From Batillaria attramentaria (Eukaryota; Mollusca; Gastropoda; Batillariidae): DNA of 64,000 bases. The stretch spans positions 236,001 through 300,000 of the forward strand of contig JACVVK020000481.1 of the NCBI GenBank assembly GCA_018292915.2, in the 5' to 3' direction. The translations under genes and the position numbers were made by a program. The notes beneath the pieces are model-generated. The model was not told where the DNA came from and did no database searches. It worked only from the letters and a program-made list of their open reading frames with translations. Of this stretch, positions 3,471 through 64,000 are shown piece by piece (within the stretch, counting starts at the first letter, position 1; every line of letters begins with the position of its first letter).

Positions 3471-4797
3471 GTTCTGTCATTCACTCATCACTGCTGCTGA
3501 GTGATACTGTAGATGTGTGGAGACAGCAAGTCATCTGTGTTACGGGTCTTCACCAAGACTCAGACAACAAAACCCATCATGACAAAACACAAACATGAGA
3601 GAAACGTGCGGTCAGTTCATGTAACAGTAAACGCCTGTTCAAATGATGTGTGGTTTATCTGTGTAGGTACGACAGGATGCAGTGGAAGCAAAGACCGTAA
3701 TTGATCCAGCATGGCATTTCTCCTTTGCAAAGTTGAGTACCCTGTGGTGTGGTGTGACTGTCGGGGACCCGGCCACCCTCACCCTGCCCTGGAATCCTGT
3801 AGAATGGACACAGGCTGTTGTGATTGGATATAGCGGTGTTTGGCAGTACGGCCCTAAGGTAAGGGGCGTGTGATATCGGCACGTGATGACGTGTGAAACA
3901 TGCTCGGTTATCACATTTTGATTCAATACTTATATGGTTATACACATTCCGACACAGCACAGAGCTAAATTATGTTATAATATTTTTCAGCAAAATGTGG
4001 AAGTTGCACGTGTTGTAGAAAACTCCATTTGTGTTGAAACGCACAAAAAGTCGAAAACGCTTTTGTTGTTGATTTTTAAATGAAAGAATTCAGTGGTCCG
4101 CCCAATATTCCTAACAAAACAAGCCACACAGTCAATTCCGTGACCGTAGCTGAATGTTGCATCGCTTTTAGTTACTTACTGTGATAGACTTTGGATTGAA
4201 ATGAACCGCACCATGTGATTACAAACTGTGATATTGCCACAGACGGCCAATACCGTAGGAGAGTCACTGCGCGGTCTGCGTGAGGGAAGCCGTGTCGGGG
4301 TGCTAGTGGACACCGCCAACAGTCTCCACCTGTATGTGGACGGACAGCACCAGGGAGTGGCCGCCAGGAACATACGTCACCCGTGTCACGCTTTCTTCGA
4401 TGTTTGCACTCCATCCGAAAAGGTGAAGTTATATTAAAGCGAAACAGTAATCGCGCTACTAACCACGTGACTCTTGTGGGAGAAGACTTCTACAGTCACA
4501 AGAAGTGTAACATTGGCTATTATAGGTCTCTGAAATTTTTCTCTTTTCTTCAGGGAGGGGGGGGGGGAGGGGGTGAGGGGGCGCTTGTTCTTATAACAAG
4601 TTCGCTTTAAAAAAAGTTGAACCAGTACCAGTGATTTGAAGTGGTTTGCTATTTTCTCATCATCATCATCAATATCTGTTTTCACGGTCATGCAAAAGAA
4701 GGAAATGATAGAGCGTCGCTGTCGCTGTGCAGTGTAAATGAAGGAATCACATGGTTCACACACACTTCCTATAAACATCCTCTACTCTGGGCTGGGT

Positions 4798-4970
4798 GGG
4801 GAGCCGGGATGGCCGAGAGGTAGAGCGTTGGACTTTCAATGCTCGGGTCATGAGTTCGAATCCCGGTTGGGGCCAGCTATATGTGCTGGCCTTTTTCTCG
4901 TTGCCCCGTCTTTGATATCATCCGCGCGTGGTGGAAAAGGACGTTAAACTCCCAAACACCCACCCACCCA
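4798..4970 (+). mobile_element. tRNA-derived SINE, type 1
   Basis: tRNA-like head with an A box (GGATGGCCGAGAGGTAGAGC) and a B box (GAGTTCGAATCCC), a body with TTGATATCA, then GGACGTTAAACTCCCAAACA and a short CACCC repeat. It is flanked by ACTCTGG on both sides, an approximate target duplication. It sits in intron 4 of truncated copy 0, in the same place as the SINEs in genes 2, 3 and 4. Confidence 0.85.
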
Positions 4971-5202
4971 CTCTGGTCTCGGTACTAACAGGGTTTACAC
5001 GAATCCACGAAACAACTTTCTCCATAAAGTTTAAGATATAATCAAAGGAACTTTTTAAAATAATGTTTCAATCAACCATAACGTTTATATTAAGATTCCT
5101 ACCATTCTTTATAACGACTGTTGGAAATTCCGGGCTTTCTTGGCAGAAAATAACGTATGTCATGGTATGTGTGTACTTCTGTAAAACATCAGTATAAGTA
5201 CA

Positions 5203-5240
5203 TCTCTCTCTCTCTCTCTCTCTCTCTCTCTCTCTCTCTC
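5203..5240. repeat. (CT)n microsatellite
   Basis: Pure CT dinucleotide run in intron 4 of copy 0. Counterparts lie at 39665-39713 (gene 3) and 55373-55422 (gene 4). Confidence 0.95.
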
Positions 5241-5702
5241 ATCTTAATTTAGTATGTTCTTAATTCAGTATGTTAGCTTAGCTTAGCATAGCATAGGTAA
5301 GCTTAGAGTCAACTATGTTTTCCTATCTGGTAATGTATTTTTCCTGTCTTTTTCATACAGATCACAACTCTTCCCTTGAGAGCCATGCCGTGAAACAAGA
5401 GAAGTGTAATGGGCGGTAGCTGGTACAGTGACTGTATCTCTCATCATGTGCTGTCTGTCACAACTCTCACCCAGCAACTCTCTATACATACAATTTGGTT
5501 TTCATTCATATACGAAATAGTAACCATAAAAACATAAACTGTGCAAGAGAATAACCATTTCACATCATCAGATCGATTTCATATCATTGTCTGTTTTCAT
5601 TCGGTGTTGTTTCATATTCTGTTTCCTACCAAACTCGTGTACATGCTGCCATTATTTGATGAGGTGTTGTTTTATAAACTGTAATGATAGTAAACATGAA
5701 CA

Positions 5703-60755: not shown

Positions 60756-60879
60756 AAACACACACACACACACACACACACACACACACACACACACACA
60801 CACACACACACACACACGAATGTGAAATTTGATACATGATCCGTGAGATCACATGACTATCCACAAGCCGTGAGGTAGG

Positions 60880-61069
60880 AAGCCGTCAGCGCAGACGACA
60901 GGAGCCGCGGGACTGAACATGCCGACCCGTCAGTGACACAATGACAACAGTAAATGAACAGTTACTGATCGATTTCTGTCTACGGACAGTCACTGACAGC
61001 AACGACATCTCGTCAAGAAGACTTTTGAACACTTGTACCCTGTCTACCCGTATAACAACAGTAGTAGGG
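60880..61069 (+). promoter_or_regulatory. Gene 5 class B promoter region and non-coding first exon
   Basis: Matches genes 2 and 4, donor GTAGGG|GTAAGTAGCG at 61069/61070. A (CA)n tract (60762-60817) ends about 252 bases before the donor. Confidence 0.5.
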
Positions 61070-61689
61070 GTAAGTAGCGATAATTATGTCTATACTGAAC
61101 GTAAACACGTCTCCATGTTGTCCTATTTTCACTTTCGCATTGTCCCCCCTTCACTGACGCCCATCGCCAATTGCCAGCCGTCTGACGGGATTTAAGGAGT
61201 GATACAGGTGTAGACCAGTATAACGTTACACGTGATCGTGTTGTAGGTATTGATAGTGTATAACACACGGCTAATTATCACTGTGGTGTGTCGGGGAATT
61301 TTAGGTTCAGTTACAGCTGACTTCCGTGTACGTGCGAGTCGGAGTAGGGGACGCAACTGCTAGTAAACTGTGAATTATGTCCCCTGCACACGATTCGTAT
61401 CTGCGGCGTATGTATGCAGGACTTGTGTGTTTTCCCTCACTGACAGCAAAACGTTCTGACTTCATACAATCAAACTCGAGAACGGCTTCCACAGTTGTGT
61501 ATAGGTTTCATTCAATCTTTTCTCTCCCTCGATTCATTGATCTGTATTGTAAATGTTGATGCTAATGCATTGATGAATCCGTCAGATTTTCAAACCAACC
61601 AGTGAAAACCAGCACATTGCTTTTCCCTTACAAGATTCTTCGTGCTGTGTTCAGGTCTTTTTCGTGCTCTGTTCAGGTTATCAGCCAGC

Positions 61690-64000
61690 ATGGCGACTGC
61701 TTCAGTTCAGCCCAGTGATACAGAGTGTCCTGTTTGTCATGAGAATTTCTCCACCCCTAAAATCCTTCCCTGCGCCCACCTTCTGTGTCGTCACTGTCTT
61801 GTGACGTGGATGAAATCCGACACCGGTGCACAGTGCCCGTTGTGTCGTGACGTCATTGCTGACGCCACAGAAAGGGCCGGTAAATCCTTGGACGCCATCG
61901 CTGACTCGCTGCCTACCGACCTGGCCATGGAGGCTAGGGTGGAATGTGCGGCCATTCTCAGCAAGAATCACGTGTGTTGTTGCTGTAAGAATACACCGGC
62001 CACATCCATCTGTCTCGACTGTGGCGACATGATGTGTCATACATGCACAAATTACCACAAAAGCTTTTCTGCGACAAAATACCATGATGTGGAAGACCTG
62101 GCCACCATGACTGCAGAACGTCTGGCTGCCAACCGCCGCTTGTCCTGTTCCGTGCACGCCGACAAGACATCGGAACTCTACTGCCCCACCCACGGGGCCG
62201 CCATCTGTCACCTGTGCGCCACATCCAAGCACCGTGCATGTCCGGAAGTGACGGAGCTGGAGGAGAAAATGCAGGAGGCGCGTGCAGTGCTGGCGGAGCT
62301 GGCGGCCACACTGAAGGCCGGAGAGAGCAAGCTGGAGGGGGCGATCAGCGAGCTGGATCAGTATCTGGTGGACATGGAGAAAGCAACACAGGCTGCCCTG
62401 GCCGACATTGACCACAAGTGTGACCGCCTGCAGAGTTGCGTGGAGGCCTGTCGCAAGCGTATGAAGGAGCTCGCTAAGGGAGCTAACTCTGAGGCCAAGA
62501 AACGTGTAGAAGAAACAAAATGGCGTCTGTTGAAGCGACGTGGACGAGTGACGTCACACTGGCGACTGGTGGATCGCGTTGGAGACAGGATGCCCCGTGT
62601 GTGTGGTGTCAGCGACATGACCTCCACGCTCCACACTCGCGTAAAAGGCATTGACCTCAGCGTCACCTTGCCTGCTGATTTGAAAGCCGTTTCCAAGACA
62701 ACACTGACGATAGACGAGAAGGCGCTGGCCCGTATTGAACGTGAACTGTCCCAACTAGGCCAGCTGAGTGTGACGCCCGCTGTGAAAGTTGCTTCAACGC
62801 CATCCGCCCCAGGAGTGACAGGAGACATGGCCGCTTCACAGGCTGTGGGTCAGGTAACGGTCAGTGTCGTCTGGTAAATACAATAAATTGAGGTACTGTG
62901 TGACCTGATTCATCTGCTCGTTTTTCTCTCCTGGTGTGGATAAATATACATACAACTGAACTTACTGGGCATTTTTTTTTTTAATCAATGAATATTAGTA
63001 GGTGTTGAATCCTCTCCCGTTTTATTTTGGGTGCGGGGGGGGGGGGGGGGATTGCTAAGGCTTTTGTCCACAATACAATGGTTTAAACATGACGTTGTGA
63101 TTCAGGCGACAAGCTGGCGATTCCACACGAACCACGGGAAGAACATCGTGCTGAGTAACAACCAGCAGACGGCGGAGAGAGTCAGGGGGGATTATCGTGA
63201 CGCCATCGTGATTTCCAGTGAGACCATGATGACAAACACACTGTATGAGGTATTGCTACAGATTGTAGTCACACAGTACTTATGATGGTGTAATGCAGGC
63301 GTATGATACATGTAGGCAACATTAGTTTGTATGGTTTTCTATCATTCCCTTTCTTTCTACATAGACTGTATCGTTGTTTCGTTGTTGATATTTCACCTCC
63401 GTATTTTAATCTCCTTTTCATTGTTGGTGCTTCTTATCAGTGTATATGTTCATGATTTACGTTGTTAATATCAGTAATAATAATAATAATGGATACATAT
63501 AGAAACCATTACTGTGCTCAGTGAGGTATAATTATGCGTGTAGCGAGCTAAAAAGAACTAAAGGAACTTAGAAAGCTAAGAGAAAGCAATACATTAATTA
63601 CAGCACACACACACACACACACACACACACACACACACACACACACACACACACACACACACACACACACACACACACACACACACACCGAGTTCTGTCA
63701 TTCACTCATCACTGCTGCTGAGTGATACTGTAGATGTGTGGAGACAGGAAGTCATCTGTGTTACGGGTCTTCACCAAGACTCAGACAACAAAACCCATCA
63801 TGACAAAACACAAACATGAGAGAAACGTGCGGTCAGTTCATGTAACAGTAAACGCCTGTTCAAATGATGTGTGGTTTATCTGTGTAGGTACGACTGGATG
63901 CAGTGGAAGCTGTAAATGGTTCAGCACGGCATTTCCTTCTTGCAATGTCAAGTACCCTGTATTGTGGTGTGACTGTCGGGGACCCGGCCACCCTCACCCT
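61690..64000 (+). CDS. Gene 5: RING/B-box/coiled-coil/NHR protein, class B (3' end outside window)
   Basis: Exons 61690-62853, 63106-63249 and 63888 to beyond 64000. The ATG at 61690 follows the TTATCAGCCAGC leader shared with genes 2 and 4; the upstream open frame is not conserved. RING, B-boxes and coiled coil are intact (388 codons). NHR exon 2 has 48 codons with RGDYRDAIV. Exon 3 begins VRLDAVEAVNGSARHFLLAM then SSTLYCGVTVGDP, the long-loop form otherwise seen only in truncated copy 0. Exons 4 and 5 are not in the window. Intron 1 shows the poly-G run (63035-63050). Confidence 0.85.
63604..63688. repeat. (CA)n microsatellite in intron 2 of gene 5
   Basis: CA run of about 42 units. Confidence 0.95.

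Follow-up and report, generated by a model that had tools for sequence, protein, structure and literature searches.

Organisation of the TRIM-NHR locus

The window analysed here is a stretch of 64,000 nt from the snail Batillaria attramentaria (G000:C481:236001-300000), and the subject of this analysis is the variation of the NHR domains encoded in it. Five TRIM genes lie in the window in one orientation, of which copies B, C, D, and E are complete and copy F is cut at the edge, beyond which the genome sequence consists of N. Each gene has one exon 1 of 388 codons, encoding the RING and the probable B-box and coiled-coil regions, followed by exons 2 to 4, which jointly encode an NHR domain (PF07177). 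In addition, copy A (3667-4437) is truncated at its 5' end and retains only exons 3 and 4 in sense orientation. All coordinates are given in Table 1. The splice sites were similar across the copies compared. The end of exon 2 was first read from the open frame, and this reading was ruled out; the true donor lies five codons earlier (TATGAG/gtattg; the database protein P0008 reads YE/VRLDAVEG at the junction).

The RING of copies D and C, both of the copies run, matched zf-C3HC4 with 37.0 and 36.1 bits (cut-off, 21). The scores for zf-B_box, which matched two stretches in each copy, were slightly below the cut-off of 24.1 (23.2 and 21.6 bits), and those for TRIM_CC were below the cut-off of 30 (19.9 and 21.9 bits); many relatives have PF00643 or PF22586 in precomputed domain lists. 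Neuralized (PF07177) was the top family in all three spliced copies (C, B, and E), scoring 72.1, 72.0, and 81.9 bits (cut-off, 23.3). A B30.2/PRY-SPRY domain was not supported, SPRY reaching 17.9 and 17.1 bits in two of these three copies (cut-off, 26.3). On the basis of these profile matches, the genes are predicted TRIM-type E3 ubiquitin ligases with a Neuralized (NHR) domain in place of the usual B30.2. The Neuralized/NEURL chains 2e63, 4kg0, and 2yue are of the same domain family as the snail NHRs. Neuralized-type proteins are not known to have the RING-B-box-coiled-coil front, and no hypervariable NHR repertoire was found among the papers listed in a search of the literature (titles and abstract openings).

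Diversifying selection on the NHR within the window

Diversifying selection acts on the NHR of the window genes. A sequence-only reading of this DNA had quoted variable loop and exon-end strings, all of which were found in the sequence (Table 1), and had claimed that most of the change is replacement. The codon columns agreed with this claim: in exons 2 to 4 of all copies present, 71 columns varied in amino acid and 11 varied synonymously, versus 71 and 59 in exon 1 of copies B to F (Fisher p=1.1e-6). Exon 2 had 16 columns variable in amino acid and none variable synonymously. The ratio of nonsynonymous to synonymous differences per site (pN/pS, Nei-Gojobori), averaged over the six pairs of copies B to E, was 0.38 in exon 1, 2.2 in the NHR, 2.85 in the loops marked in the sequence-only reading, and 1.7 in the remaining NHR.

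The same reading had stated that the flanking introns stay very similar. This was correct for introns 2 and 3, which were 3-15% apart depending on the pair, and exon 1 turned out not to be uniform, since it has two 5'/RING types and a divergent B-box in copy E. Nonsynonymous change in the loops was 25-38%, and loop pN exceeded intron divergence in all six pairs (p 5e-4 to 3e-13); pN of the whole NHR was clearly above intron divergence in two of the six. Between copies D and E, introns 2 and 3 and the synonymous sites of the NHR both differed by 3.5%, versus 11% at nonsynonymous sites of the NHR and 31% at those of the loops. The check that had been proposed, a site-wise dN/dS analysis set against intron divergence, therefore came out in favour of the reading, with the NHR and loops well above 1, exon 1 below 1, and loop change of 25-38% against 3.5-14% in the introns.

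Codon site models were fitted with our own code (F3x4). For the NHR of copies A to F, the one-ratio model (M0) gave a nonsynonymous/synonymous rate ratio (omega) of 2.8-3.2 across four topologies (omega 3.0, p=1e-5). Under M2a, 12-18% of codons were placed at an omega of 15-18, and twice the log-likelihood difference (2dlnL) from M1a was 90-102 over the four topologies. None of 100 data sets simulated under the M1a null on a star tree reached the observed value (largest 2dlnL, 7.6). The omega of exon 1 in copies B to F was 0.37-0.39. The loops marked in the sequence-only reading, which had been chosen for their variability, had an omega of 5.7 (p=1.5e-5).

Repetition across the Batillaria genome

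A search of the genome (715,342,989 bases in 863 contigs) gave at least 146 PF07177 matches, NHR genes of other kinds included, with 150 of the 311 candidates scored. The matches lie on contigs C12, C47, C153, C222, C251, C481, C484, and others, many of them in tandem, with 31 on C153. Two larger sets were examined. The C481/C433 subfamily, consisting of BLAST copies from C481 (194 kb) and C433 (20 kb) and including the window copies, comprised 11 exon 1s, 12 exon 2s, 11 exon 3s, and 11 exon 4s. From the C153 array, 29 of the 31 places with an exon-2 match were taken, of which a288682, whose exons read like those of a269553, and L041, in which no exon was recognised, were dropped; extraction by fuzzy matching yielded 27 exon 2s, 23 exon 3s, and 20 exon 4s. 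Exon 4 of copy G2, which is without the usual stop, was trimmed at 64 codons. Since the 5' flank and RING part place B and D in one group and C, E, and F in another, whereas introns 2 and 3 join D with E, a single tree for the whole gene was rejected, and one iqtree tree was built per exon, with omega again from our own code.

M2a was preferred over M1a in the subfamily for exon 2 (p=6e-6), exon 3 (p=9e-23), and exon 4 (p=1e-13), and in the C153 array for the same exons (p=2e-10, 1e-28, and 4e-13, respectively), with largely the same sites. The omega of the whole NHR was above 1 in both sets (2.7 in the subfamily, p=7e-8; 1.7 in C153, p=2e-5), and that of exon 1 in the 11 subfamily copies was 0.36 (site test, p=0.12). 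The stretches selected in both arrays were loop 1 of exon 2, the hairpin, the P..GW turn, and the end of exon 3, and the start and end of exon 4. A posterior above 0.95 in both sets was obtained at codons 29 and 31 of exon 2; in the hairpin, the two variable P..GW positions, the stretch preceding VW/VR, and the last codon of exon 3; and at codons 2, 10, 53, 55, 56, and 57 of exon 4. Loop pN was 29-32% versus intron medians of 6-10% in the two larger sets, and 11 of the 12 loop-1 sequences in the subfamily and 18 of the 27 in C153 were distinct.

Among the proteins returned by the searches, those nearest to the window exon 1s were 87-92% identical, and the window's own genes are therefore not among them. 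The protein BaRGS_026695 has exons 2 and 3 reading as a copy on C433, but its exon 4 differs from that copy. This mismatch and the absence of the window genes among the returned proteins matter for annotation.

Recurrence in other snails

Littorina saxatilis belongs to Littorinimorpha and Batillaria to Cerithioidea, and TRIM-NHR proteins of Littorina have a common framework with the Batillaria proteins and matching variable stretches. Its variability was assessed at the protein level from the 17 of 29 full-length NHRs that form a close subfamily; P0038, which is 97% like P0045, was left out. Since P0034 and P0045 have exon 1 and exon 4 in common, the 17 proteins do not represent 17 genes, and dropping either of the two changed nothing (rho 0.38, 0 of 147 shifts). 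Column variability in the Batillaria window correlated with that in Littorina (rho 0.38), and none of the 147 circular shifts gave a value as high. The 24 columns that are hypervariable in Littorina had a mean variability of 0.52 in the window, versus 0.15 at the other columns. Of the 14 window sites selected under M2a, 13 had a usable Littorina column; 8 of these 13 fell on Littorina-hypervariable columns, as compared to 15 of the 148 other sites.

Since the loops of the sequence-only reading had been chosen by eye for amino-acid change, which biases their omega upwards, columns picked by Littorina variability were used instead. The 23 window codons at Littorina-hypervariable columns had an omega of 9.5 (p=1e-5), and the 78 window codons at Littorina-invariant columns had an omega of 2.4, not significantly above 1 (p=0.12). 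The outcome of the dN/dS analysis was thus repeated both in a second array of the genome and at the same columns in Littorina. Relatives are also present in Babylonia areolata, a member of Neogastropoda. Among the matches listed (the best 120 of 125 and 120 of 210), named relatives came only from Batillaria, Littorina, and Babylonia, and many other matches bore no name.

These values bear on whether selection for diversity is needed at all. Partial copies (A and Z) are present in the window and recombination between copies is clear, which would fit an origin of the variation by relaxed constraint, by a mutation hotspot, or by gene conversion with decayed copies as donors. However, relaxation or a hotspot gives an omega of 1, and the values of 5.7 in the marked loops and 9.5 at the Littorina-chosen columns rule out a neutral hotspot or relaxed constraint; moreover, the exon 1 frame was open over all 388 codons in 11 of 11 subfamily copies. 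We therefore give an origin without selection for diversity next to no chance.

They also bear on the kind of partner that the loops would bind. Neuralized and Ozz use their NHR domains to bind substrates of the host, according to the part of PMC9098882 cited here, and each snail copy might likewise have specialised for a different endogenous substrate, in Neuralized-like signalling or turnover. Yet copies a few percent apart in their introns already differ at many loop positions, most loop-1 sequences are distinct (11 of 12 and 18 of 27), and stable host targets do not predict the same variable columns in Batillaria and Littorina. Such specialisation of paralogs has, in our judgement, a slim chance of being the explanation.

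Placement of the variable stretches on the NHR

The profile of the snail NHR aligned with nearly the whole domain of 2e63 (E=5e-25) and with the first half of 4kg0 and 2yue, two Neuralized chains. Loop 1 aligned to NQTATC-SSYDDRVVLG in the PRY-SPRY chain of TRIM67, and 2e63 has an insertion at this place. The insertions and deletions among the window copies affect loop 1 and the hairpin of exon 3, where they reach 11 residues; in copy B, they also affect the ends of exons 3 and 4. In the part of PMC2923778 cited here, the NHR and SPRY folds are reported to be alike, and the ligand of one SPRY protein is contacted by five variable loops, all on the same face. In finTRIM and TRIM5, the loop that joins strands 2 and 3 is the hotspot of selection, as far as PMC2657112 is drawn on here. 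Because of the alignment with solved NHR and PRY-SPRY chains, the likeness of the two folds, the five-loop SPRY site, and the positions of the insertions and deletions, we infer that the variable stretches are probably exposed loops lying on one face and forming one recognition surface.

Mosaic copies and alternative exons

The 5' flank and first 80 codons are of two types, one in copies B and D and the other in C, E, and F; the sequences upstream of the ATG could not be aligned between the types, and the RING parts are 15-19% apart. Over the remainder of exon 1, the copies are 2-6% apart, the B-box of E being the exception, and introns 2 and 3 group D with E. The B-box cassette of E (51362-51676; exon 1 codons 81-185) is 11% from C, D, and F, which are ca. 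2% apart from each other. By eye, this cassette is like P0001 and P0005, both of them paralogs from the database. The two gene types become homologous five to eight bases before the ATG (9639-9644, 21264-21269, 35676-35684, 51117-51122, and 61685-61690), and two different 5' ends thus precede near-identical proteins.

In the C153 array, distances in exon 2 showed no relation to those in exon 3 or exon 4 (Mantel r 0.02 and -0.07), and exons 3 and 4 covaried (Mantel r 0.36; 0 of 999 permutations as high). No significant correlation of exon distances was found in the window subfamily (Mantel r 0.38, 0.19, and -0.31). Rapid loop change by itself could also blur such correlations. Direct exchange was seen in 3 of the 190 pairs from C153 and in none of the 45 subfamily pairs; L048 and L051 of C153, for example, are 0.7% apart in exon 2 and 17.6% apart in exon 3. 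Furthermore, exon 2 of fragment Z is identical to that of G2 except for 1 of 144 bases, and the same loop also occurs in C153. From the discordant exon distances, the exchange cases, and the near-identity of Z and G2, it follows that the copies are mosaics in which exchange adds to point change.

Some genes have two exon 2s. At C47:138608-138742 and 138861-138992 (L053), two exon 2s with the loops VRGEVG and VRDNND are flanked by a single exon 1 and a single exon 3, each exon 2 with its own acceptor and donor in phase 0. A similar pair is present at C222:163961-164095 and 162998-163132 (L054; loops TGGDWH and TGRFWY), with the same donors and near-identical flanks; its acceptors could not be pinned down, only the end of exon 1 was matched, and no exon 4 was found within 5 kb. 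These two loci, both of the two examined, had been chosen for neighbouring exon-2 matches. In Littorina, P0034, P0038, and P0045, labelled as isoforms X4, X1, and X3, have exons 1 and 4 in common and combine exon 2a or 2b with exon 3a or 3b. Since their exons 1 and 4 are identical, the three proteins probably come from one gene. P0037 and P0079 are the same over the first 426 residues and differ in exon 3, and their labels name different genes. Alternative exon use in Littorina is thus suggested by database isoform labels together with the sequences.

Alternative hypervariable exons are known from Dscam1. The exon 2 pairs of C47 and C222 and exons 2a/2b and 3a/3b of Littorina are like Dscam1 in having duplicated variable exons between constant ones, and C47 has the full layout, that is, tandem alternative exons with splice signals in phase and shared constant exons. 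They differ from Dscam1 in offering two alternatives per exon only, in belonging to a predicted intracellular E3 ligase rather than a surface receptor, and in that alternative use is taken from isoform labels.

Likely role of the TRIM-NHR arrays

The mode of evolution is that of finTRIM and TRIM5-alpha, to which the sequence-only reading had compared the loops. In the part of PMC2657112 cited here, finTRIMs are multigene TRIMs with positively selected sites in the loops of the C-terminal domain, 15.6% of sites being selected under M2a; the snail genes are alike, with 12-18%. As in the snail genes, in which the loops were placed by alignment only, the hotspot is loop 1, which joins strands 2 and 3, the RING/B-box region is less affected, and recombination was detected (same source). 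TRIM5-alpha likewise has selected variable loops of a recognition domain on a conserved effector, as far as that source is concerned. The comparison does not extend to membership: finTRIMs carry B30.2 in teleost fish and TRIM5-alpha is a primate B30.2 protein, whereas the present genes, known from sequence, form a tandem repertoire with a three-exon NHR (PF07177) and putative ligands in caenogastropod snails. Membership in the teleost finTRIMs fails in a snail genome whose named relatives among the matches listed are from the three snails mentioned above.

Because the combination of conserved effector and diversified binder, together with turnover of the arrays and recurrence of the same sites, matches the finTRIM pattern, recognition of foreign, fast-evolving proteins followed by ubiquitination is the most likely role of these genes. 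We consider it likely that they constitute a germline repertoire of E3 ligases binding fast-evolving proteins, probably of pathogens, as putative ligands. In such a repertoire, the RING, B-boxes, and coiled coil of exon 1 would be the conserved effector that assembles and ubiquitinates, and the NHR of exons 2 to 4 would bind the target through about five loops. Tandem duplication would supply many copies, inter-copy recombination would homogenise much of exon 1 and the NHR framework and swap NHR exons, and positive selection would keep replacing loop residues. In the cytosol, the loop face would bind non-self proteins, whether of viruses, bacteria, or parasites; ubiquitination would follow, with degradation or immune signalling as its outcome.

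Several results weigh against this interpretation or weaken its support. The framework, which the sequence-only reading had called nearly invariant, deserves a milder term: omega outside the marked loops was 2.1 in the window (p=0.04), and framework pN/pS was 1.4 in the subfamily and 1.03 in C153. Since these values are near or above 1, change is not restricted to the loops. Whole exon 2 was not above 1 on its own: omega was 1.8 (p=0.19) in the subfamily, and C153 gave 0.61, with 6% of its codons in the fast class. The site test for exon 1 of B to F gave a signal on a star tree (p=0.0005) that disappeared once the tree was resolved (p=0.93). Site tests, here run with our own code, can be inflated by within-exon recombination, and the two arrays, being in one genome with possible sequence exchange, are not fully independent. 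Littorina also varies in B-box 1 and in the linker preceding the NHR, with 28 of its 53 positions of variability >=0.6 lying in the NHR and a mean variability of 0.30 in the linker and 0.23 in the NHR. In addition, no data here tie the genes to infection, and selection on loops and array turnover would be expected equally if the loops diversified for self or mating-related partners (gamete, sperm-female, or allorecognition), as in other fast-evolving multigene families. Proteins with RING, B-box, and coiled coil, however, act intracellularly, and the nearest published mode of evolution is that of antiviral TRIMs, at least as described in the part of PMC2657112 used here; self or mating-related partners are therefore unlikely.

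Intracellular genome defence, in which the ligases would bind capsid or ORF1-like proteins of retroelements, was also considered. The capsid is the ligand of TRIM5-alpha, which sets a precedent for binding of this kind, and the window contains a LINE-type (long interspersed element) frame and, perhaps from a short interspersed element (SINE), a weak tRNA match. Such repeats, however, are common throughout the genome, the repeats of the Batillaria attramentaria assembly amounting to 314 Mb (43.87%) in the part of PMC10382545 cited here. Genome defence is accordingly a very unlikely role.

Recognition of foreign proteins would be of interest since how invertebrates, which are without antibodies, keep pace with fast-evolving pathogens is an open question. 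If it is true, the solution of TRIM5 and finTRIM arose again on a second domain family, and the NHR is a diversifiable binding scaffold. Among the papers listed by a capped literature search (titles and abstract openings), none dealt with a hypervariable NHR, TRIM-NHR, or mollusc TRIM family, and the present data suggest that molluscs have an inherited set of recognition proteins that has so far gone undescribed. More tentatively, and with somewhat less than even confidence, we propose that caenogastropods have combinatorial germline intracellular recognition, in which TRIM-NHR arrays with selected, exon-shuffled loops and alternative loop exons would provide several binding faces per gene, as a mollusc counterpart of finTRIM and Dscam.

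Other features of the window

Table 1 Exons of the TRIM-NHR copies in the window, with their variable stretches
Feature	Position	Strand	Basis
Fragment Z, lone exon 2, reversed	7-150 (150-7)	-	sequence reading
Copy A exon 3, long form, loop 3685-3744	3667-3858	+	sequence reading
Copy A exon 4, variable end DVCTPSEK at 4399-4422	4243-4437	+	sequence reading
Copy B exon 1, RING and probable B-box/coiled coil, 388 codons	9644-10807	+	sequence reading; Pfam run covered D and C
Copy B exon 2 (start of NHR), loop 1 GWWAWDD at 11113-11133	11038-11181	+	sequence, splice sites, NHR profile
Copy B exon 3, hairpin loop EGNTKIWTL at 11652-11678	11634-11795	+	sequence reading
Copy B exon 4, variable end YIHSHYKK at 12357-12380	12201-12416	+	sequence reading
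Copy C exon 1	21269-22432	+	sequence reading, Pfam
Copy C exon 2, loop 1 VRGDCD at 22729-22746	22654-22794	+	sequence, splice sites, NHR profile
Copy C exon 3, loop EGDTTKWAL at 23405-23431	23387-23545	+	sequence reading
Copy C exon 4, variable end DVSFPYKK at 24087-24110	23931-24125	+	sequence reading
Copy D exon 1	35684-36847	+	sequence reading, Pfam
Copy D exon 2, loop 1 VRGDSD at 37452-37469	37377-37517	+	sequence, splice sites
Copy D exon 3, loop EGNTCWCTL at 38136-38162	38118-38276	+	sequence reading
Copy D exon 4, variable end YVYGPYTK at 38833-38856	38677-38871	+	sequence reading
Copy E exon 1, divergent B-box cassette	51122-52285	+	sequence reading
Copy E exon 2, loop 1 VGVCDD at 52650-52667	52575-52715	+	sequence, splice sites, NHR profile
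Copy E exon 3, loop KGDTMICSL at 53323-53349	53305-53463	+	sequence reading
Copy E exon 4, variable end DVYGPYKK at 54019-54042	53863-54057	+	sequence reading
Copy F exon 1	61690-62853	+	sequence reading
Copy F exon 2, loop 1 VRGDYRD at 63181-63201	63106-63249	+	sequence, splice sites
Copy F exon 3, long form, ended by window edge	63888-64000	+	sequence reading

Blocks of tandem segmental duplication, 93-97% identical, are present at 41427-44708 and 44694-48303, and parts of them reappear inverted at 1509-3274, adjoining the truncated copy A. Minisatellites were found at 25289-25967 and 5700-6138, with units of ca. 62 and 73 bases, respectively, and the sequence of the latter array was found again near 17065, 40615, and 55868. 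On the minus strand, the LINE-type frame (zf-RVT) is located at 566-1579, a THAP-domain fragment at 6653-6883, and the weak tRNA match at 54580-54651.

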